Positions 24,017 through 33,879 of a DNA stretch of 64,000 nucleotides are shown piece by piece. The position numbers were made by a program, and so were the translations under genes. Numbering within the stretch: the first letter of the stretch is position 1; every line of letters starts with the position of its first letter. The notes below the pieces were generated by a model, which was not told the origin of the DNA, ran no database searches, and saw only the letters and a program-made list of their open reading frames with translations. Origin of the DNA: an uncultured Kordia sp. (GTDB lineage Bacteria; Bacteroidota; Bacteroidia; Flavobacteriales; Flavobacteriaceae); NCBI RefSeq assembly GCF_947496985.1, contig NZ_CANMEZ010000002.1, forward strand, positions 620,001 through 684,000, written 5' to 3'.

Positions 24017-24154
24017 TTGCTTCGCAAGTTTTAGTACGAGGCATGAAATTACAAAATATCTACAGCATAACGCAAATGTTAAGTATGGTTTTTCCGTAAC
24101 TGATTCGTAGTATGTTTTTATAACTTGAAAATCATTAACCTAAAATCAAATCTT

Positions 24155-24289
24155 ATGTTAAAAAATATTGAAAAGATTGGGAAACCATTAAGCAAAAAGG
24201 AACAACAAGCAATTAATGGAGGAGGAATTTGTTGTAACTATTCTCCAGAGAGAAATTGTTGTCATCTTACAAATCCTTGGGATGATTAA
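24155..24289 (+). CDS. Bacteriocin-like double-glycine leader peptide
   Basis: 44 residues starting MLKNIEKIGKPLSKKEQQ and reaching A-I-N-G-G-G. This is the classical double-glycine bacteriocin leader common in flavobacteria and unlike the L-x-L-x-K lanthipeptide leaders elsewhere here. The 20-odd-residue core has two vicinal Cys pairs (ICCNYS and RNCCHL), suited to disulfides. A UUCG-capped terminator follows within 6 bp, so the gene is monocistronic. It is divergent from the omega-amidase and convergent with the LytTR operon. Confidence 0.7.
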   Translation: MLKNIEKIGKPLSKKEQQAINGGGICCNYSPERNCCHLTNPWDD

Positions 24290-24325: not shown

Positions 24326-25030
24326 TTATTTTACATTAATATCCAGTACTTCAAATAGTTTCGCTTTAAAAGTTCTACCTATTGGAATGCGTTTATCGTG
24401 AATATACACTTCATTTCCAGTAATTTTATCTACGTGTTTTACATTAATCACAAACGATTTATGAATTTGAATGAATTGCTGTTGTGGCAACTTCTCTTTC
24501 CATGTACGCAAACTTGCAATGAATGATAACTTTTGTTGTTTACTTACTAAGGTTAAATAATTTCGTTCCGATTCTACATAATAAATATCTTGAAACTGTA
24601 TTTTATGAAACGTCTTATCAACATTTAAAAACAAGGTGTCTGAAGGTGTTTTTGGTGTTTCTACCTGTAATACTTTTGGTTGATTTCGTTGTGTTTTTTG
24701 AATTGCTTTTAGAAAACGTTCCAACGAAAATGGCTTGACCAAATAATCAATAATTGTTTCAAACTCAAAACTCTCCACTGCATAATCAGGATATGCCGTT
24801 GTCATAATAATGGTTGGCGGATTTTTTAGCGTTCGCAGAAAGCTTAAACCAGAAATATCAGGTAAATTAATGTCTAAAAAAATCAAATCGATTTCTTCAG
24901 AATATAATGTATCATATGCTTTTAATGCTGCATTGAATGTGTCAACTAATTCTAAATGTGATACTTTATTAATATAATTCTTTAGAATGCGCTGTGCAGG
25001 AATTTCATCTTCTATTATGATACATTTCAT
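24326..25030 (-). CDS. LytTR-family response regulator
   Basis: 234 residues from the ATG at 25030. The receiver domain has acidic pocket E7-D8 and phospho-acceptor Asp53 (IFLDINLPD), Thr in MTTAYPDYAVESF, and Lys in VKPF. A LytTR DNA-binding domain (about 135-232) carries FIQIHKSFVINVKHV. The start overlaps the kinase stop as ATGA, so translation is coupled. LytTR regulators of this type usually control small sets of envelope or virulence genes. Confidence 0.93.
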   Translation of the reverse strand: MKCIIIEDEIPAQRILKNYINKVSHLELVDTFNAALKAYDTLYSEEIDLIFLDINLPDISGLSFLRTLKNPPTIIMTTAYPDYAVESFEFETIIDYLVKPFSLERFLKAIQKTQRNQPKVLQVETPKTPSDTLFLNVDKTFHKIQFQDIYYVESERNYLTLVSKQQKLSFIASLRTWKEKLPQQQFIQIHKSFVINVKHVDKITGNEVYIHDKRIPIGRTFKAKLFEVLDINVK

Positions 25031-25995
25031 GAGAGTTGTAGTTTCAAAGTGACACAATATTTTTCATCAGCAGCGATCATAAGTTCATATTTATCTTTAT
25101 AAATTAATTCCAAGCGTTTCTTTAAATTTTGCAATCCAATCTTGTCTTCTTCTGTTTCCTTTGTTGGATCAAATTCATTTGTACACACACATTCCAATTC
25201 ACCATTTTGTACATTTATATGCAAATCAATTATGCTATCAATAATACTGTGTTTAAATGCATTTTCAATAATTGTAATTAACAACAATGGTGCTACTTCA
25301 TAGTTTGTACGATCTGTCTGCTTCGTATATTCAATCGTTTTGATGCCTTCTGTGCGAATCTCTTGAAATTTAATATAATTGTCAATAAAAGTGAGTTCTT
25401 TTTCTAACATAACAAACGTAGCATTGCTTTCATACAATACATGTTTCAAATTATTGGACAACATTAAAATTAAATCAGGAACTTGTCCTGGTTTTTCTAA
25501 TGAATAGGAATAAATCGTATTTAAATTATTGAACAATACATGTGGATTTATCTGCGATTTTAAAAACTTTAGCTCCATTTCCGTATGTTTTCGTTCAATA
25601 GCTTCTACTTCATCCTTCTTTTTTAAATAACGAAATAACATCCAAATAAAAGAGAAAAAGATAATTGGTACAATTGTTTGCCACACATAATCCGACAAAC
25701 ATTTTACCACACTACAGCCACATTGCGCAAATACATTACAATATAGTTGCGTTGCAAAAAAACTGATGAGTGTTATGACCAAAATATACAATGTATACCA
25801 TTTTTTCTTTTCAAAAAAAGGCAGCAATACGAAGTCGTTTACATATACAATGGTTACTAAAATAGATAAGTATTGTAAAAAGGGATTTTCTGTCCAATAG
25901 TAATGAGAGAAGTAAAATAACGAAACAAAAATGAACAACGCCCAGAATAAAATGTGAATCAGGATTTTAGAAATTCTATAGCTAAAAAAGTTCAT
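25027..25995 (-). CDS. LytS-type sensor histidine kinase (His_kinase family)
   Basis: 322 residues from ATG 25995. An in-frame ATG at 26067 would add 24 residues of unlikely sequence. Four membrane helices (about 11-30, 41-58, 68-86 and 106-122) precede a His_kinase domain with the phospho-acceptor His152 (KSQINPHVLFNNLN) and a HATPase with N-box IIENAFKHS. There is no periplasmic sensor domain. It probably phosphorylates the LytTR regulator with which it overlaps by 4 bp. Confidence 0.9.
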   Translation of the reverse strand: MNFFSYRISKILIHILFWALFIFVSLFYFSHYYWTENPFLQYLSILVTIVYVNDFVLLPFFEKKKWYTLYILVITLISFFATQLYCNVFAQCGCSVVKCLSDYVWQTIVPIIFFSFIWMLFRYLKKKDEVEAIERKHTEMELKFLKSQINPHVLFNNLNTIYSYSLEKPGQVPDLILMLSNNLKHVLYESNATFVMLEKELTFIDNYIKFQEIRTEGIKTIEYTKQTDRTNYEVAPLLLITIIENAFKHSIIDSIIDLHINVQNGELECVCTNEFDPTKETEEDKIGLQNLKKRLELIYKDKYELMIAADEKYCVTLKLQLS

Positions 25996-26218
25996 ATTGT
26001 AGTTTTTACAAGCATTCAAAGTACTAAGAAACCTAGAATTGTTCAAATATAAATGGACAAAATACATTCTTTACTGTATAAACTTCTCTTTTTGATACAA
26101 GAAATACATCTTTTCCTAAAATGCTTTTCATAAAGGTATTCGCGCATGCTGTACATTTTTTTAGCAAACCTTTTTGGGTTGAACGAGTTTTGAGGTATCA
26201 ATTTAAAATAACCAAAAA

Positions 26219-27109
26219 ATGAACAGACTTTTTACAACACTACTAACACTTTTTTTATGTCAAATTTTGCTTTCGCAAGAACTCAATCAAGTTACAAAAG
26301 ACACTAGAGGACGTGAAAAAATGTTAGGAGAAATTAATAAAAGTGGGCTTACGCAAAACTCTTTTAATACATGGTTTACTCCAAATTACGAAGCGTACGA
26401 ACCGAATGTAGAAATTACAGAAAAACTACAACGAAAACTCAAAAAATATACAATTACTGTTTTTATGGGAACTTGGTGTGGCGATAGCAAACGTGAAGTC
26501 CCAAAGTTTTATAAAGTATTAGAAGCTGCCAATTTTCCTGAAAGTAATTTGCGTGTTGTCGGACTTAATAATGGTCGCGAACATTACAAACAAGGACCTA
26601 ATGGTGAAGAAATAGGCATGAACATTCATCGAGTCCCTACGTTTATTGTATATAATAAAAGAGGAAAAGAAATTGGACGTATTGTAGAACATCCTGTGGA
26701 AAGTTTTGAGGCCGACTTATTAAAAATTTGTCGCAAAAAATCATACCAACACAAGTATCAAGTTGTCACTGAATTAGATAATATATTTAAGAAAAAAGGA
26801 GAAAATTATGTTACTAAAAACACAGAAAAAGTGATTTCTAAATTAAAGCCTTTTTTAAAAAATTCAAGAGAATTAAATACGTATGGATATATGTTGCTTC
26901 GTTCAAAAGCAAAAGAAATTTCAAAAGCTATTACCGTTTTTACTATTAATACACAACTCTTTCCAGAAGATAAAAACTGTTATGATAGCTTGGCTGAAGC
27001 ATACTATGAAACAAAAGAATATGAAAAAGCAAAAGAAAATTACGCCAAAGTGTTGGCTTTAGATGCAAATGACGCAAATGCAAAAACAATGCTAGCAAAA
27101 ATGCAGTAA
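26219..27109 (+). CDS. Secreted thioredoxin-fold protein with C-terminal TPRs
   Basis: 296 residues. A signal peptide (1-20) is followed by a thioredoxin-like domain (about 65-170) whose active site is W86-C-G-D-S90. This is a C-x-x-S site rather than C-x-x-C. The cis-Pro region is IHRVPTFIVY. The last ~80 residues form a TPR pair (LAEAYYETKEYEKAKENYAKVLALD). A single Cys at the active site favours a mixed-disulfide or isomerase-like role over a classical reductase. It is probably periplasmic. Confidence 0.83.
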   Translation: MNRLFTTLLTLFLCQILLSQELNQVTKDTRGREKMLGEINKSGLTQNSFNTWFTPNYEAYEPNVEITEKLQRKLKKYTITVFMGTWCGDSKREVPKFYKVLEAANFPESNLRVVGLNNGREHYKQGPNGEEIGMNIHRVPTFIVYNKRGKEIGRIVEHPVESFEADLLKICRKKSYQHKYQVVTELDNIFKKKGENYVTKNTEKVISKLKPFLKNSRELNTYGYMLLRSKAKEISKAITVFTINTQLFPEDKNCYDSLAEAYYETKEYEKAKENYAKVLALDANDANAKTMLAKMQ

Positions 27110-27138
27110 TAATTACTTATCAACGCAAAGTTTGTTTG

Positions 27139-27184
27139 AAAAGCGACGCTTCTCCTTGTGAGATTATAGCGTTGCTTTTTGTTT
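27139..27184 (+). terminator. Terminator after the thioredoxin-TPR gene
   Basis: Twelve-base arms AAAAGCGACGCT (27139-27150) and AGCGTTGCTTTT (27168-27179) with one G-T pair, then a T run. Confidence 0.75.
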
Positions 27185-27226
27185 TTAAACACAGTATCCT
27201 ATTTTTATTATTCTTATTTTAGACGC

Positions 27227-27247
27227 AATTCGTTTTTATGACGAATT
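27227..27247. promoter_or_regulatory. Inverted repeat upstream of the first TPR-AraC regulator
   Basis: Arms AATTCGT (27227-27233) and ACGAATT (27241-27247) sit about 80 bp before the regulator ATG, flanked by an outer GCAATT/AATTGC pair. It may be an operator or an mRNA hairpin. Confidence 0.4.
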
Positions 27248-27328
27248 AATGAAATTGCGCTACCACGATTTCTACGTGCCTTTAACACATAACTTATATT
27301 GAATTACATTTCTTAAAAAAAGAGGTTT

Positions 27329-29035
27329 ATGACGCGAATAGTTGCTAATTTTTTGACTTCGATCATTATATGTACACTTACTTTTTCTTTTTCAGCGCAA
27401 GCGCAACAACTCTCAGAAAATGCTTCCTTTTCGGAAATATACGAGTTGATTTTAGAACAAAAATTTTCAGATCCAGAAACAGCACAACAAAACGCAAAAA
27501 TATTACTTCAGAAAAGTGAAACAGCTAAAAGTCTAGAATATACTTTTAAAGCTTATTACCAACTTGCACGAATTGCCAATATTCAAGGAGATTATAAAAT
27601 AGGAATCAAGTATGCTACACGCGCTGAAGATATCGCAAAAGTATTAAAAAATGATGTGTTTCTATCTGAGGCATTACTTACTAAAGGAAACGCGTATGTA
27701 TATCTTGGCGATGATAAAAAATCTTTAATATACTATTTGGAAGCTTTAGACTACGCTAAAAAAAGTGAACATATTCGAAATCAAATAAAAGCACGTGGCA
27801 ATATTGCAAAAGTAAAACGCAATGTTCATTTTAATGAAGAAGCGTTAAGAATGTTTCAGCAAAATTTTAAGCTCTGTAAAGAATTTGGAGTCGAAAAAGA
27901 AACCATTGGAATAAACACCTATTTAGGTCTTACAGGTACGTTTTTAACCTTATCAGAACCAGATTCTACACTGTTTTATGCAACGCCAGGACTCACGTAT
28001 GCAACCGAAAATAATGATGTAGAAGGAGAAAGTTATTTTTATATTGATATGGGCATTGCCTATTTCATGAAAAGTGAATTCAAAAAAGCGATTACCTATT
28101 TGAAAAAAGCAGAAATAATTACACTAAATCTAAAGAACAAAAAAAGATTAGTAGAAGTGTATTATTATATAGGGAAGTCATATGAAGGATTGAAAAATTA
28201 TGAAAAAGCAATTCATTTTTTAGCCCTTACAAAAAAAACTTTTTCCCAAGAGAATAAAAATAATGATGTACTAAAGTTCAATCCGCATATATTATTAAAG
28301 ACACATGAAACTTTAGCTGATGTTTATAAAAAACAAGGTGATATTAAAAAATCGAATGCCAGTTTTGAACAATACAAAGCGTTAGACAAACTAAAAGATG
28401 TCGATCGCACCAATGTATATGAAGCTCTATTAGATAATGTCCATAAGGAAAAAGAAGAATTAAGTACTTCTGAATCTCGCTTAAAAGATACCGTTAAAAT
28501 TATTTCAATTGCTGCAGTATTAGCATTACTTTGTTGTATTTACTTTATTTGGAGATTTATAAAAGTGCGTAAAAAAAATAAAATCATTTTTGAGCAGTTG
28601 ATGCAAAAGATTGAAACAGAAAGTCATCAGAAAAAGAAAACAGATGTAACTATTCAAGATAAAAAAGTGCAGGAAATTTTAACACGTTTGGACAAACTTG
28701 AAGCTTCTCTTTATTTTTTAAATAGTAATTGTTCTTTACAAAATGTTGCCAAAAAGATTAAAACCAATACGAGTTATTTATCAAAAATCATTGGTTCACA
28801 TAAGCAGAAAAAATTCACAGAATACATCAATGAATTACGGATTCAATATGTATTAAAACGTTTAAAGGAAGATTCAAAATTCAGAAAATATTCTATTAAA
28901 AACATCGCTGAGGAGATTGGCTATAAAAGCACCAATTCATTTACAAAACATTTTAAATCACACACTAAATTGTATCCTTCTTTTTACATTCAAAATTTAA
29001 ACGAAAAAGAGAAAAAGAATAACTCAAATTTATAA
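27329..29035 (+). CDS. Membrane TPR sensor with AraC-type HTH (paralog 1)
   Basis: 568 residues. A signal peptide (1-26) and about six TPRs (about 30-355) predict a periplasmic sensor. One TM helix (about 391-411) leads to a cytoplasmic AraC-type double HTH (about 455-558; FLNSNCSLQNVAKKIKTNTS, then IAEEIGYKSTNSFTKHF). This is a one-component membrane transcription factor. Its C-terminal half is nearly collinear with paralog 2 at 30119. It is followed by a palindrome that contains its stop codon and then a GG-leader peptide 90 bp downstream. The obvious hypothesis is that it controls that peptide and responds to a periplasmic ligand, perhaps the peptide itself. Confidence 0.83.
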   Translation: MTRIVANFLTSIIICTLTFSFSAQAQQLSENASFSEIYELILEQKFSDPETAQQNAKILLQKSETAKSLEYTFKAYYQLARIANIQGDYKIGIKYATRAEDIAKVLKNDVFLSEALLTKGNAYVYLGDDKKSLIYYLEALDYAKKSEHIRNQIKARGNIAKVKRNVHFNEEALRMFQQNFKLCKEFGVEKETIGINTYLGLTGTFLTLSEPDSTLFYATPGLTYATENNDVEGESYFYIDMGIAYFMKSEFKKAITYLKKAEIITLNLKNKKRLVEVYYYIGKSYEGLKNYEKAIHFLALTKKTFSQENKNNDVLKFNPHILLKTHETLADVYKKQGDIKKSNASFEQYKALDKLKDVDRTNVYEALLDNVHKEKEELSTSESRLKDTVKIISIAAVLALLCCIYFIWRFIKVRKKNKIIFEQLMQKIETESHQKKKTDVTIQDKKVQEILTRLDKLEASLYFLNSNCSLQNVAKKIKTNTSYLSKIIGSHKQKKFTEYINELRIQYVLKRLKEDSKFRKYSIKNIAEEIGYKSTNSFTKHFKSHTKLYPSFYIQNLNEKEKKNNSNL

Positions 29036-29043
29036 ATTTGAGT
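29022..29043 (+). promoter_or_regulatory. Perfect 22-bp palindrome spanning the regulator stop codon
   Basis: Arms ACTCAAATTTA and TAAATTTGAGT, with the TAA stop at the centre and no T run after it. A counterpart follows paralog 2 at 31802-31825 with the same CTCAAATT/AATTTGAG core. It may be an attenuator, an RNase site or an operator between regulator and peptide. Confidence 0.55.
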
Positions 29044-29125
29044 CGCAGCTATACTACAGCATAGAACGTACGATGTAAAATATGTTTATTTTCAAACCGA
29101 AAACATAAACTTTAAATAATCAATT

Positions 29126-29293
29126 ATGAAGAAAAAAAACTTAAAAACCATGCATTTGAAAAAACGTTTAATAGCTAATATGGTAACGAATCAAGTAGAT
29201 GCTATGAAAGGTGGTACACGCACACAATTTAACTCTGTTGAGCTTACCATTTGCCCAGGTCAATTATATTGTCAATTTAACACTTCTGAATAA
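29126..29293 (+). CDS. GG-leader peptide with KGGTRT junction (module 1)
   Basis: 55 residues. The leader (MKKKNLKTMHLKKRLIANMV...) ends M-K-G-G, followed by T-R-T. The core has two Cys (TICPGQLYCQ). The leader departs from the L-x-L-N-K pattern of the other precursors. Its closest relative here is the peptide at 31897, which also follows a TPR-AraC gene and also reads KGGTRT. This pairing suggests a regulator-cognate peptide. The gene has its own terminator at 29331. Confidence 0.68.
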   Translation: MKKKNLKTMHLKKRLIANMVTNQVDAMKGGTRTQFNSVELTICPGQLYCQFNTSE

Positions 29294-29330
29294 GCGTTTT
29301 TATAAGTATAAAGCCCTAATATTAAAGTAT

Positions 29331-29360
29331 AACCAGAAGATTCTCTTCTGGTTTTTTTGT
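29331..29360 (+). terminator. Terminator of module 1
   Basis: Arms AACCAGAAGA (29331-29340) and TCTTCTGGTT (29344-29353) with a 3-nt loop, then seven T. It separates the module from the following precursors. Confidence 0.88.
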
Positions 29361-29464
29361 GCGCAAATTCATAAATATTTCAAGAATATACTCACATATT
29401 TCTATTAATCCTTTCATTTCTTATCTATCTTGAAATGATTAACAAATCATAAAAACTCATACTC

Positions 29465-29662
29465 ATGAAGAAAAAGAACCTAAACAAAGAATTCACTTTT
29501 GATAAACTTGAATTTAAGAAAGAAAAGATTTCTGCTATCACACCAAGAAGTACAAGTAATGTTAAAGGAGGAAATATGTGTCATGATACTAATTGCACAA
29601 TGGATCCATGCCCACCGTTTTTAACAACACGTATTTACAGTGGAGGAAGTATGCCTGAGTAA
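29465..29662 (+). CDS. Lanthipeptide-like precursor peptide
   Basis: 65 residues. A Lys-rich leader ending N-V-K-G-G (35-36) and a 29-residue core with three Cys and several Thr/Ser (CHDTNCTMDPCPP, LTTRIYSGGS). The leader lacks the L-x-L-N-K core of its neighbours and has F-x-F-x-K instead. A -7-like TATCTTG lies about 33 bp before the ATG. It lies 60 bp upstream of the next precursor and is probably co-transcribed with it. Confidence 0.7.
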   Translation: MKKKNLNKEFTFDKLEFKKEKISAITPRSTSNVKGGNMCHDTNCTMDPCPPFLTTRIYSGGSMPE

Positions 29663-29722
29663 GTGTTTAAACAAACTAATTTTCAAAACACAAAAATTAA
29701 TCACATTTAAAAATCTAAACTC

Positions 29723-29911
29723 ATGAAAAAACATCTTAAAAAATTATCATTAAATAAAAAACAAGTAAGTCAATTAGGTCAAGATTCCCTTAAAGGAGGA
29801 TTTACGTTACCTTGGCAAACACCAACACGTTCATGCTTTGGATGTGAAGGACCAACAACAGGACAAACAGGATCGTTATGTTTAACAGGAAATCAAACAA
29901 ACTGTCAATAA
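29723..29911 (+). CDS. Class I lanthipeptide-like precursor peptide
   Basis: 62 residues. The leader K-K-L-S-L-N-K-K-Q-V-S-Q-L ... L-K-G-G is the typical form in this window. The 36-residue core has four Cys and ten Thr/Ser (SCFGCEGPTTGQTGSLCL), which is rich ring-forming potential. It is followed by a strong palindromic terminator, closing a two-gene unit with 29465. Confidence 0.75.
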   Translation: MKKHLKKLSLNKKQVSQLGQDSLKGGFTLPWQTPTRSCFGCEGPTTGQTGSLCLTGNQTNCQ

Positions 29912-29933
29912 CATACACTTTTTATATAGTTAT

Positions 29934-29964
29934 AAAAGCTTCTCAATTGAGAAGCTTTTTTTAT
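29934..29964 (+). terminator. Terminator of the two-precursor unit
   Basis: A 26-bp palindrome centred on CAATTG (arms AAAAGCTTCTCAA and TTGAGAAGCTTTT, 29934-29959) with a T run. Confidence 0.85.
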
Positions 29965-30118
29965 GCAGAAAAATGACAAAACGAGATGAATATATTTTAT
30001 TATTACTATTTTTAACTCCTTTATGTTCTTTGTAAAAAGTCATCACTAAAATTTTCTACCAACATTTTAATGTGCTTTTCAAAAAAAGAACAAGGTATTT
30101 TCCATTAAAAAGAGTTTT

Positions 30119-31813
30119 ATGATACGAAAGATGGCGAAATTTTGGAGTTTTATTGGTTTCGTACTTCTGACTTCTAACATCTTTGCTCAGGAAATGCCCG
30201 AAGACGCTTCTGCCAAAGAAATGCTCACTTTTATCATTCAACAAAAACATTCCAATCCAGATTTAGCTAAGAAATATGCACATATTTTGCTTAAAAAAAG
30301 TAAAAATACAAACGACATAAACAGTGTTTATACTGCATATTTTCAACATGCACGGATTGCCAATATTGAAGGAAATTATGAACTAGCAATCAAGTATTGT
30401 GATTCTGCAATTGCAACTGCAAAACACTTAAAAGATGAAATTTCAGTGGCTGAATGTTATTTAACTAAAGGAAATGCTACTGTATATCTTGGGGATAATA
30501 AAGAAGCATTAGCAAGCTATTTAAAAGCACTAGAAATTGCGAACAAACGAAATGATATTGAGTTAAAAATCAGAGCGAAAGCAAATATGGCAAAGATCAA
30601 AAGACGGATGGAGTTTTTTGAAGAAGCTTTAGAAATTTATAAAAACAATGCACAGTTAGCAGAGCAATATCAATTTGAAGATCAACTGATTGTGATTAAT
30701 TCTTATATGGGGATTGGCGGTACTTTTTTACGATTACATCAACCTGATTCTACGTTGCATTATGCTAAAATTGGTTTGCAAAAAAGTTTAGCAATTAATG
30801 ATGATGAAGGTGTTAGTTATTTTTATATCGATATTGGTATTGCATATTTTATTAAAGGTGATTTTAAAGTCGCTATTGAATATTTAACAAAAGCCGAAAA
30901 GATTACCAAAGGTTTAAACAATCAAAATCGTTTGACGGAAATCTACTATTATATTGGCAAATCGTATTATGAGCTGAAAACATACGACAAAGCAATTACA
31001 TTCTTAAAAAATGTAGAAACAATCGTTTCAAACAAAAATACAATTGCAAGTAATAATTTCAATCCGCCAGAATTACTTGGCACATATCACACTTTGGCAA
31101 ATGCTTACGAAAAACTTGATCAATACAAAGAACATTTGGCCTATACATCAAAATACATAGAACTCAATAAGCACAATAAAGTTCAAAATATTGAGGTTAT
31201 TAAAGATTTGTATGAAACTGTTCGGAAAGAAAATAACGATTTGTCTTCGCTGACTTCTAGGTTAGAAAATAGTTTACTATATGTAATTTTGTTCACAGCT
31301 TTTGTACTTGGTTTGTGTGGTTTCTTTTTGTTTAAGTTCATTAAAATTAGAACACAAAATAAAGTCATTTTTCAAAAATTAGTTTCACAAATAGAAGCTA
31401 AAAAAGAACCTGAAAAGAAAGCTGATTTCACGATAAAAGATAAAAAAATAGAAGCCATTTTAGAAGGTTTGGAAAAGCTAGAGCACGCATTATATTTTCT
31501 AAATAGTAATTGTAATTTGCAAAATATGGCAAAAAAAGTAAAGACGAATACAACTTATTTATCTAAGATAATAAGAACCTATAAACAGAAGAAATTTTAC
31601 GAATACATCAACGAATTACGTATTGAGTATGTATTAAAACGGCTTAAAGAAGATTCAAAATTTCGCAACTATTCCATTAAGCATATTGCCGAAGAAATTG
31701 GATATAAGAGCACAAATTCGTTCACTAAATACTTCAAAGCGCACACAAAGCTCTATCCTTCTTACTACATTAAAAATCTAGAAGATACCGATAAAAATAT
31801 TACCTCAAATTAA
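30119..31813 (+). CDS. Membrane TPR sensor with AraC-type HTH (paralog 2)
   Basis: 564 residues. A signal peptide (1-24), TPRs (about 28-350), one TM helix (about 383-405) and an AraC HTH (about 450-553) repeat the architecture of 27329. Long identical stretches include YVLKRLKEDSKFR and IAEEIGYKSTNSFTK. The TPR parts differ more, as expected if ligands differ while the DNA-binding specificity stays close. Its stop codon lies in a hairpin like that of paralog 1, and an KGGTRT peptide follows 83 bp later. The two modules look like a segmental duplication. Confidence 0.83.
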   Translation: MIRKMAKFWSFIGFVLLTSNIFAQEMPEDASAKEMLTFIIQQKHSNPDLAKKYAHILLKKSKNTNDINSVYTAYFQHARIANIEGNYELAIKYCDSAIATAKHLKDEISVAECYLTKGNATVYLGDNKEALASYLKALEIANKRNDIELKIRAKANMAKIKRRMEFFEEALEIYKNNAQLAEQYQFEDQLIVINSYMGIGGTFLRLHQPDSTLHYAKIGLQKSLAINDDEGVSYFYIDIGIAYFIKGDFKVAIEYLTKAEKITKGLNNQNRLTEIYYYIGKSYYELKTYDKAITFLKNVETIVSNKNTIASNNFNPPELLGTYHTLANAYEKLDQYKEHLAYTSKYIELNKHNKVQNIEVIKDLYETVRKENNDLSSLTSRLENSLLYVILFTAFVLGLCGFFLFKFIKIRTQNKVIFQKLVSQIEAKKEPEKKADFTIKDKKIEAILEGLEKLEHALYFLNSNCNLQNMAKKVKTNTTYLSKIIRTYKQKKFYEYINELRIEYVLKRLKEDSKFRNYSIKHIAEEIGYKSTNSFTKYFKAHTKLYPSYYIKNLEDTDKNITSN

Positions 31814-31825
31814 GTAATTTGAGGT
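31802..31825 (+). promoter_or_regulatory. Hairpin spanning the stop codon of paralog 2
   Basis: Ten-base arms ACCTCAAATT and AATTTGAGGT around an AAGT loop. It includes the TAA stop (31811-31813), has no T tail, and shares its core with the palindrome at 29022. Confidence 0.55.
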
Positions 31826-31896
31826 GTAAATACCACACAACAACTATATTAATAACCTATCTTTCTTGTACAGAAAACAACCATAAAACAATATTT

Positions 31897-32052
31897 ATGA
31901 AAGTGAAAACTTTACAAAAGATGTATTTTAAAAAATCAACGATTGCTAAAATCAATCAAGTTACAGCTCAGCAGTTGAAAGGCGGAACGCGTACACTTGA
32001 CGAAGAAGAAAGCGGACTTGGAACCCATTGCGGTCCGTATGTTTGTTTTTAA
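31897..32052 (+). CDS. GG-leader peptide with KGGTRT junction (module 2)
   Basis: 51 residues from ATG 31897, aligned with the leader start of the other peptides. An in-frame ATG at 31819 lies in the regulator-downstream hairpin and gives an unlikely N-terminus. The leader (MKVKTLQKMYFKKSTIAKIN...) ends L-K-G-G followed by T-R-T, as in module 1. The core is acidic in the middle (LDEEESG) with two Cys near the end (THCGPYVCF). It is followed by its own terminator. Confidence 0.7.
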   Translation: MKVKTLQKMYFKKSTIAKINQVTAQQLKGGTRTLDEEESGLGTHCGPYVCF

Positions 32053-32076
32053 CTTACACACTTATTAATTCACATG

Positions 32077-32110
32077 AAAAATCGGAAGTACTGCTTCCGA
32101 TTTTTTTATT
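32077..32110 (+). terminator. Terminator of module 2
   Basis: Arms AAAAATCGGAAG (32077-32088) and CTTCCGATTTTT (32094-32105), 5-nt loop, then T run. Confidence 0.88.
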
Positions 32111-32224
32111 TCTTAGTAAAACACAACTTTATTTACACTTACCTCAATTCCTTTAATTTTTAGATTTCTTGAGTTATCAAACTTTGGAAAGGCAGGTTTT
32201 CCAACATACTTTTAAATAACAAAA

Positions 32225-32261
32225 TTCACGAAATTTTACTTACATATTTAAGTAGCGTGAA
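32225..32261. promoter_or_regulatory. Inverted repeat upstream of the precursor at 32289
   Basis: TTCACG (32225-32230) and CGTGAA (32256-32261) flank an inner ACTTA/TAAGT pair. The right arm is 28 bp before the ATG. A possible operator. Confidence 0.4.
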
Positions 32262-32288
32262 TTAGTAAATAACCTAAAACATTAATTT

Positions 32289-32447
32289 ATGAAAACTCAA
32301 AAAGTAAAGTCGCTAAAATTAGTAAAGGCATCAATTGCAAATTTAGATGTTGCAAAACAAGATAGAATTGTTGGTGGTGGAACACGCGCTTGGACAGGTT
32401 GTAATACCTTCAATTCTTTATGTCCAACTTCTTGCCATGCACACTAA
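32289..32447 (+). CDS. GG-leader peptide, GGGTR type
   Basis: 52 residues, too short for most gene callers. The leader (MKTQKVKSLKLVKASIANLD...) ends I-V-G-G-G, and the core begins T-R, echoing the KGGTRT peptides of the two regulator modules although no regulator precedes it directly. The core of about 22 residues has three Cys and several Ser/Thr (TGCNTFNSLCPTSCHAH). It is 33 bp upstream of the next precursor and shares its terminator. Confidence 0.7.
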   Translation: MKTQKVKSLKLVKASIANLDVAKQDRIVGGGTRAWTGCNTFNSLCPTSCHAH

Positions 32448-32480
32448 AAATTACATTTATTAACTATTAAATTTTAAACC

Positions 32481-32678
32481 ATGAAAAAAAAGAATTTAAA
32501 AAATTTATCGCTAAACAAGAAATCCGTTTCCGCTTTAACGAATGAAGATGTAAAAGGTGGAAATTTCTCTTATGGCAGTCCAATTTGTAATACACAAGAG
32601 CCAGAATTTTGCAACTGGACTTACAACAGATGGTGCTACAATACTGGATCTCCAGGAATTTGTACTGCTCCAAAATAG
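32481..32678 (+). CDS. Class I lanthipeptide-like precursor peptide
   Basis: 65 residues. The leader MKKKNLKNLSLNKKSVSALT ... V-K-G-G is the canonical form in this window. The 38-residue core has four Cys, several Ser/Thr and many aromatics (NWTYNRWCYNTGSPG). It is the second gene of a two-precursor unit with 32289 and is followed by a terminator shared in position with the convergent aminotransferase gene. Confidence 0.77.
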   Translation: MKKKNLKNLSLNKKSVSALTNEDVKGGNFSYGSPICNTQEPEFCNWTYNRWCYNTGSPGICTAPK

Positions 32679-32703
32679 TAGTAACGATAACTAGATAATT
32701 AGG

Positions 32704-32736
32704 AAAGCTCTTGAAATTCTCAAGAGCTTTTTTTTA
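32704..32736. terminator. Terminator between the precursor unit and the aminotransferase gene
   Basis: Arms AAAGCTCTTGA (32704-32714) and TCAAGAGCTTT (32720-32730) with a T run to the right. It mainly serves the plus-strand unit. Confidence 0.82.
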
Positions 32737-33879
32737 TATCCTATTCAAAATTTCTGCGGCTTGTTTTAGTGTTTCTTCTGTTTTTGCAAAGCAGAAACGC
32801 AGTAATTTATGATCTTCTTTATTGGTATTGAATACTGAAAGAGGAATGGACGCAATTTTATGTTCACGTGTCAATCGTTTTGCAAATTCTGTATCCAATT
32901 CGTCTGTGATGGCATCATAAGATAATACCTGAAAATAAGTTCCTTGTGCGGGTTTCCATGTAAAACGAGAATCTTTAATAGCGTTTAAAAAATAGTCTCG
33001 CTTTTGCTGAAAAAATACCGGAAGTTCTTCATAATGTGCTGGGTTTTTAAGATAATTCCCAATACCGATTTGCATTGGATGATTTACAGAAAACACATTG
33101 AATTGATGCACTTTTTTAAATTCGTCCATGAGTTCTTTTGGCGCAACACAATAGCCCATTTTCCAACCTGTATTATGAAACGTTTTCCCAAAAGAAGCTG
33201 TGATAAATGCACGTGCTGCAAGTTTGGGATATATTGCTGCGCTTTCATGTTTTGCTCCGTCAAAAATAATATGTTCGTACACTTCATCACTAAGTAAAAT
33301 GATGTTTGTGTTTTCAAGAATTGAAGACAATGTGTGCATATCCGTTTTTGACAATACTGTACCACTTGGATTGTGTGGCGTATTGATAATCATCAACTTC
33401 GTTTTATCATTGATATTGTTTCGTACTTCGTCCCAATTCACCGAAAATTCTTTTCCTTGAAGTTGAATAGGTACAACTTTCCCTCCATTTACCTCTATTG
33501 CTGGCGCATAACAATCGTATGCAGGTGTAAATATGATGACTTCATCATTTGGACGCACAAATGCACTTATAATGGTATAAATAGCTTGTGTTGCTCCTGC
33601 AGTAACTACTATTTCCGTATGAGGATTGTAATTACGTTGGTACAAATACTCCATTTTTTCGGCAATTGCTTCTCGTAACACTGTTGCGCCAGGCATTGGT
33701 GCATACTGATTGTAGTTTTCTCGCAACGCTTGTTGAACCATTTTAATCAGTTTTGGGTCAGAAGGAAAGTTAGGAAATCCTTGCGACAAATTAATTGCTT
33801 TTTCCTTAGCAGCCAATTGACTCATTACTGTAAATATTGTAGTCCCTACAGTTGGAAGCTTTGAAGTATGTTGTATCAT
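32734..33879 (-). CDS. Methionine (PLP-dependent) aminotransferase
   Basis: 381 residues, class I/II fold-type I aminotransferase of the methionine/kynurenine/glutamine transaminase K group. The PLP-binding Lys232 is in SFGKTFHNTGWK. N170-P171 (NTPHNPSGT) and D198 (LLSDEVYEH) contact the cofactor. The N-terminal INLSQGFPNFP is characteristic of the group. It likely transfers the methionine amino group to keto acids, and the omega-amidase at 23234 would complete methionine salvage. It interrupts the precursor cluster on the opposite strand. Confidence 0.9.
   Translation of the reverse strand: MIQHTSKLPTVGTTIFTVMSQLAAKEKAINLSQGFPNFPSDPKLIKMVQQALRENYNQYAPMPGATVLREAIAEKMEYLYQRNYNPHTEIVVTAGATQAIYTIISAFVRPNDEVIIFTPAYDCYAPAIEVNGGKVVPIQLQGKEFSVNWDEVRNNINDKTKLMIINTPHNPSGTVLSKTDMHTLSSILENTNIILLSDEVYEHIIFDGAKHESAAIYPKLAARAFITASFGKTFHNTGWKMGYCVAPKELMDEFKKVHQFNVFSVNHPMQIGIGNYLKNPAHYEELPVFFQQKRDYFLNAIKDSRFTWKPAQGTYFQVLSYDAITDELDTEFAKRLTREHKIASIPLSVFNTNKEDHKLLRFCFAKTEETLKQAAEILNRI

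Follow-up and report, generated by a model that had tools for sequence, protein, structure and literature searches.

What do two neighbouring, paralogous genes for membrane regulators have to do with the small peptide genes behind them? The window analysed here, the whole stretch of 64,000 nucleotides of Kordia DNA, contains two such regulator genes. Each is followed by a palindrome across its stop codon, then by a gene for a KGGTRT peptide and then by a terminator, and this observation of the initial annotation was borne out (Table 1). The locus thus raises the question of whether regulator, palindrome and peptide belong to one unit, and which signal such a unit would serve.

The best explanation, to which we assign a probability of about 0.8, is a regulator–operator–precursor module. 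A membrane-anchored one-component regulator, predicted to have a periplasmic TPR superhelix, a single membrane helix and a cytoplasmic AraC-type HTH, would be encoded just upstream of a precursor of the class I lanthipeptide type, and the precursor would be transcribed from its own promoter. The putative operator is a palindrome of 22–26 bp with its centre ~80 bp before the precursor ATG. The -7 box would follow 43 bp further downstream, or one helical turn beyond that, so that the palindrome would occupy the position of an activator. The regulator would bind the palindrome and switch on the peptide gene, and sometimes also unlinked ones that carry this palindrome. The peptides would then pass through a common LanB/LanB'/LanC set, and a C39-type exporter would cut the leader at the GG.

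Table 1. Positions of the two modules and of further precursor genes in the window
Feature	Position	Strand	Remarks
Regulator 1	27329..29035	+	568 aa; signal peptide, TPR, membrane helix, C-terminal AraC-type HTH (predicted)
Operator 1 (predicted)	29022..29043	.	palindrome ACTCAAATTTATAAATTTGAGT; covers regulator 1 stop codon (29033-29035)
Possible -7 box, peptide 1	29081..29088	+	TATGTTTA; 48 bp from dyad centre
Peptide 1 precursor	29126..29293	+	55 aa; leader, then KGG|TRTQFNS...
Terminator-like hairpin and T run after peptide 1	29331..29358	+	intrinsic-terminator-like
Further GG-leader precursor	29465..29662	+	65 aa; similar one at same position in L057, L058
Further GG-leader precursor	29723..29911	+	62 aa
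Regulator 2	30119..31813	+	564 aa; architecture as regulator 1
Operator 2 (predicted)	31802..31825	.	palindrome ACCTCAAATTAAGTAATTTGAGGT; covers regulator 2 stop codon (31811-31813)
Probable -7 box, peptide 2	31858..31865	+	TATCTTTC; 44 bp from dyad centre
Peptide 2 precursor	31897..32052	+	51 aa; KGG|TRTLDEEESGLGTHCGPYVCF
Intrinsic-terminator-like hairpin after peptide 2	32076..32106	+	
Second precursor, module 2	32289..32447	+	reads GGGTRA
Third precursor, module 2	32481..32678	+	65 aa

The regulators, their peptides and the possible signal

Regulators 1 and 2 are 52% identical. TPR and HTH_18 Pfam matches are found in both, and PF12833 scores above its cut-off in both, which assigns them an AraC/XylS DNA-binding domain. 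A kinase domain is not among the Pfam matches of the window regulators, and TPR and HTH are located on one polypeptide. The predicted structure of regulator 2 (mean pLDDT 84.3) is composed of a short N-terminal signal-type helix, a TPR superhelix (32–332), a long helix (336–427) in which the membrane span could lie, and an HTH domain at the C-terminus; the architecture of regulator 1 is given by homology to this model. As the N-terminus resembles a signal peptide (judged by eye), the TPR should be periplasmic and the AraC HTH cytoplasmic. The same arrangement had been claimed earlier, and it fits the sequence and the model of regulator 2. According to the comparison of the model with PDB folds, LGN TPR domains are the best matches, and Rap with the peptide CSF is at rank 38 (E 2e-6). 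TPR folds are common, and these matches prove nothing on ligands.

In the source genome, the protein search gave 45 matches, and 38 were counted as full-length TPR-TM-AraC genes. A GG-type peptide gene is located downstream of 34 of them, at 49–155 bp in 33 cases and at 293 bp in one. These downstream genes are short; the leaders that they encode are rich in lysine and end in GG in most cases, in GKG or GA in others. Four regulators have no peptide close by: one precedes another such regulator, one precedes a secreted-type protein, and two have nothing obvious within 900 bp. Ten other Kordia genomes hold 220 regulator matches, and 105 of these were examined, namely the first 80 by E-value among the matches listed outside the loci studied, 24 further intact ones within those loci, and L070. 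The pairing rule was set after the source-genome peptides were known and before the 80 were examined. Seventy of the 80 pass this rule, and the median spacing among them is 91.5 bp. The ten failures, sorted by eye, are five peptides with changed cleavage motifs, four proteins (~260 aa) whose N-terminus is of signal type, and one protease-like gene. Once the changed motifs are counted (five added by eye), 75/80 precede a peptide. The rule is also passed by all 24 further intact relatives (24/24); L070 is a frame with stops and has no peptide.

As a control, none of the 37 other genes in the window passes the rule. Over all loci, 14 of 212 control genes pass, nine of which are TPR-AraC genes absent from the exclusion list; after their removal, five of at most 203 remain (L032, L042, L171, L229 and L236), in loci that were chosen for holding regulators, peptides or LanB. 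At regulator loci outside Kordia, a GG-type peptide is found behind the regulator in 11 of 30 (10 by the rule, L194 by eye). The dedicated regulator–peptide pair proposed for the window therefore recurs throughout the genus and beyond it, and a regulator–operator–precursor module far wider than the two window copies is well supported. In a regulator tree obtained by a quick method (66 rows, many deep forks weak), peptide pairing appears on several branches. Since the tree mixes the source genome with other genera, the multiplication was not one simple burst.

All ten orthologues of regulator 2 have both the palindrome and a peptide downstream. In L055 the palindrome departs by one base, and in two of the ten the gene end differs, yet the palindrome is retained. 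A second peptide is found at +432 to +503 in all ten loci orthologous to module 2. The likeness in GG-T-R was taken at first as special to the two KGGTRT peptides, and it extends to the second precursor of module 2 (Table 1). GG[TS]R, the signature by which the initial annotation proposed to survey such modules, is present in only 16 of 128 module peptides; the regulators of all 16 are closely related either to regulators 1 and 2 or to the L004/L068 pair, and the signature was not upheld. T-R anywhere in the core is enriched (51/128 module peptides versus 20 expected from shuffles), for example as TTRPDSL in one subfamily.

The regulator family is not peptide-only, because five of the 80 relatives' regulators and one source-genome regulator precede other proteins. 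In L019, L153, L157, L166 and L167, a similar secreted-type protein follows ~100 bp after the regulator, with a palindrome near GTTTAAATTTATAAATATGAAC. Another regulator branch (L191, L202, L203, L204 and L207) has a palindrome near ACCCTAAATTTATAAATTTAGGGT close to the regulator. At these five loci a protein of ~135 aa with an N-terminal membrane-type helix replaces the peptide (cut off in L203).

Which signal the TPR domain would receive was approached by partial rank correlations. Operator likeness follows the HTH (0.276) slightly better than the TPR (0.219). For peptide-core likeness, the values are 0.127 against the TPR and 0.158 against the HTH. A coupling of peptide core and TPR beyond the co-descent of the module was sought in this way and not found. 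Because core likeness is tied to the TPR no more closely than to the HTH, the correlations lend no specific support to a pairing of peptide and TPR. The same module would also work if the regulator sensed the envelope state, a nutrient or the peptides of neighbours, and the peptides were effectors only; the chance of this falls not far short of even. Such a role would agree with the lack of preferential coupling between core and TPR, with similar regulators in front of non-peptide proteins (in other genera, in front of the ~135 aa membrane-type protein), and with the presence of one operator type also before unlinked peptides with different cores. However, it would require 34 distinct cues for the 34 modules of one genome. 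The peptides, moreover, are the only module-private product of exported type that is seen; this counts against other signals, and if one input is to be named, the peptide is the most parsimonious.

The likeliest single signal is thus, tentatively, the mature peptide (or a piece of it) inducing its own gene, with the odds somewhat against this. Caution on peptide sensing is in order, because unlinked peptides share one operator and some regulators precede other proteins. It is rather unlikely, though conceivable, that each Kordia genome runs tens of parallel private circuits, in which each TPR-TM-AraC protein would recognise, in the periplasm, the modified and GG-processed peptide of its own module, and would activate the promoter of that peptide through a module-specific palindrome. 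If this were true, a LanB-cluster regulator would have given rise to a family of one-component peptide-signalling proteins in Gram-negative bacteria.

The palindrome and the peptide promoter

For the 125 modules whose peptide is no more than 200 bp away, the top-scoring dyad was compared with dinucleotide-type shuffles, resulting in a mean score of 8.0 versus 4.5; a score of at least 10 was reached in 27% of the modules versus 0.5% of the shuffles. The dyads were also compared with single-base shuffles in a separate test. The centres of strong dyads (score at least 10) lie 74–93 bp before the peptide ATG with an sd of 5.9 bp, and their distance to the stop codon is more variable (sd 13.2 bp). 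The palindrome, once thought to be tied to the stop codon, therefore keeps its position more closely with the peptide start.

A clear dyad is present in 73 of the 125 modules, and 52 are below the dyad criteria. The -7 box was scored as a near-match to TAnnTTTG, the Bacteroidota -7 box consensus. Counted from the dyad centre, its start is at exactly 43 bp in 26 of the 73 modules and at 53–55 bp in 15; the other offsets, ranging from 15 to 74 bp, are found in at most five modules each. Judged from the spacing, these two offsets are what an activator site phased by one helical turn would give. A weak -33 signal is observed at the peptide promoters. In the half-sites, TT at -4 and -3 is common (97% and 93% of 148), and the outer arms differ. 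In the window, the -7 box of peptide 1 is a weak match, as its distance is out of the usual 43/53 register.

The window operator motif, CTCAAATT-N(2-6)-AATTTGAG, has 20 sites in the 11 whole Kordia genomes, and the reversed pattern has none in the same genomes. Nineteen of the 20 sites are located 74–97 bp before a GG-type peptide gene. Twelve are at modules of regulators 1 and 2 that were known when the motif was written. Among the eight new sites, seven precede peptides without a TPR-AraC gene within the surrounding 3–5 kb, and one is without a peptide. Four of the seven unlinked peptides (L250, L251, L265 and L268) lie behind genes with a conserved FTLDGNELAY. A second motif, CCTTAAATT-N(2-6)-AATTTAAGG, belongs to another subfamily and has five sites in the 11 genomes. 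Each site falls in a regulator module of this subfamily and lies 81–97 bp before the peptide; as the motif was written from modules already known, it shows absence elsewhere and makes no new prediction.

The initial annotation had described the palindrome as a hairpin at the stop codon. As RNA, it could be an attenuator, a weak terminator or a stabiliser of the 3' end of the regulator mRNA, and this appears very improbable, although both window palindromes out-fold most shuffles. Palindrome 1 folds with -7.4 kcal/mol (z -2.4; 5/200 shuffles equally good) and palindrome 2 with -11.7 kcal/mol (z -4.0; 0/200), and palindrome 2 has one terminator-like match on the minus strand. On the coding strand, however, no terminator match is found at either palindrome (in 28900–32800, two sites were found, which are those after the peptides), and there is no Rfam match in 26500–33500. 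In the dyads, A-C mispairs (24) are as frequent as G-T mispairs (23), therefore a DNA site is expected rather than an RNA stem. The constant spacing of 43/53 bp from the -7 box, the anchoring at the peptide start and the identical motif at seven peptide genes without a regulator gene in front also speak against an RNA element. Thus, neither an RNA role of the hairpin nor a link to the stop codon is supported, and the palindrome is best read as a DNA operator.

Taken as a DNA operator, the palindrome is most likely bound by the adjacent regulator, which would activate the peptide promoter; position, phasing, the weak -33 signal, adjacency and the recurrence of the motif point to this. Such a promoter–operator grammar predicts which peptide genes have a common regulator, and therefore the induction of silent peptides becomes directly testable.

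Lanthipeptide-type precursors and LanB clusters

In the passages of Walker et al. (2020; PMC7268733) drawn on here, class I lanthipeptide precursors of Bacteroidota are described with an LxLxKx5L leader with GG (NF038153). The leader of peptide 2 scores 19.0 bits against NF038153 (cut-off 22), and peptide 1 has no match to this model. The cores of the module peptides are rich in Thr, Ser and Cys, and in sequence the module peptides resemble class I lanthipeptide precursors. A leader profile built from 32 module leaders gave at least 150 matches at E<=1 and at least 131 at E<=0.001 in the source genome (150 of 402 candidates scored). Elsewhere in the window (24125–24289), a small ORF with a different leader reads INGGGICC and resembles another GG peptide. 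It adjoins a response-regulator-like ORF and a sensor-like ORF (24326–26067; by eye).

Exactly one LanB (PF04738) match is found per genome in the 11 Kordia genomes, and a TPR-AraC match lies within 2 kb of it in 11/11. In the source genome, the order at this locus is LanC, LanB, LanB', TPR-AraC and peptide, and the opposite strand encodes an HlyD/C39 exporter pair. PF05147 and PF14028 are present beside the LanB, so the genome is counted as one with both LanB and LanC. Three more LanC-like genes of the source genome (C1:153182, C15:11873 and C5:310319) are located away from the LanB locus. This one enzyme set would modify the peptides, which would then be exported. The module would explain how more than 100 precursor-like genes stand behind one enzyme set and are still switched in small groups.

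In a family survey of 249 genomes, LanB was found in 21, the regulator in 50 and both in 20; the regulator is thus present in 20/21 LanB genomes versus 30/228 others, and the absences are soft because at most five candidates were scored per genome. Among the 20 LanB loci of other genera, eight consist of a single run of LanB, LanB', regulator and one GG peptide. Two loci (L229 and L233) have the regulator near LanB in a different order, and ten are without a regulator in the stretch. The full runs are those of L231, L235, L237, L239, L240, L241, L243 and L244, from eight genera. No LanC match was obtained in any of the eight genomes holding the full run, and the peptides of these clusters contain 0 to 2 Cys after the GG. 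Therefore, the product may be dehydrated and not ring-closed by a cyclase. A clear dyad (score at least 10) is found in three of the eight clusters.

As it is also present in LanB clusters outside Kordia, the regulator seems to be an ancient companion of LanB, and in Kordia it would have been multiplied along with the precursor. The run LanB-LanB'-TPR-AraC-peptide, in eight genera without LanC, can also serve as a marker for little-studied flavobacterial peptide clusters. Chance adjacency of two abundant gene families, which 38 regulators and at least 131 leader-like matches (E<=0.001) in one genome might suggest, is in effect refuted by the pairing at narrow distance in 34/38 and 75/80 against 0/37 window control genes, and by the gene order retained in eight other genera.

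Relation to known systems

In the passages covered of PMC10352776, PMC7477175, PMC10734526, PMC7268733 and PMC10434189, the pairing of regulator, operator and peptide was not found described; this search did not extend to papers behind a subscription, among them the first description of the pinensins. TPR-domain genes are mentioned in two Bacteroidales RiPP clusters in the passages of PMC10352776. The Kordia modules are similar to the class I lanthipeptides of Bacteroidota in the leader type, the GG end, the split LanB, the C39 exporter and the cores rich in Thr, Ser and Cys. They differ in that most modules are far from the single LanB, that the module leader scores just under the curated cut-off or is not matched, and that eight other genera have the gene run but no LanC match.

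In the case of the prochlorosins, one LanM serves many dispersed precursors. In gene content alone, Kordia is prochlorosin-like, with one modifying enzyme set, many scattered precursor-like genes and diverse cores. Prochlorosins are mentioned in the passages used of PMC7268733. The Kordia enzymes, however, are class I (LanB/LanC), whereas those of the prochlorosins are class II, and dozens of the Kordia precursors have their own regulator and operator.

The RRNPP proteins (Rap, PlcR and NprR) are cytoplasmic, with an N-terminal XRE-type HTH or Rap helices and a C-terminal TPR. The Kordia regulators share with them the TPR superhelix and a small peptide gene after the regulator. On the other hand, the Kordia-type TPR is predicted to be periplasmic, the HTH is C-terminal and of AraC type, and the peptide has a GG leader. 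The initial comparison with this group holds as a TPR analogy at most. Membership is ruled out by the domain order, the HTH type and the location (signal-type helix, TPR at 32–332 and C-terminal HTH_18).

Self-induction of the nisin type runs through NisRK/SpaRK, which are two-component systems. A regulator in the lan cluster, a peptide of exported type and an extracytoplasmic sensor domain are common to NisRK/SpaRK and the Kordia modules. While NisRK consists of a histidine kinase and a response regulator, the Kordia regulator is a one-component TPR-TM-AraC protein. By analogy, the module may be self-induced as nisin is, through a one-component sensor.
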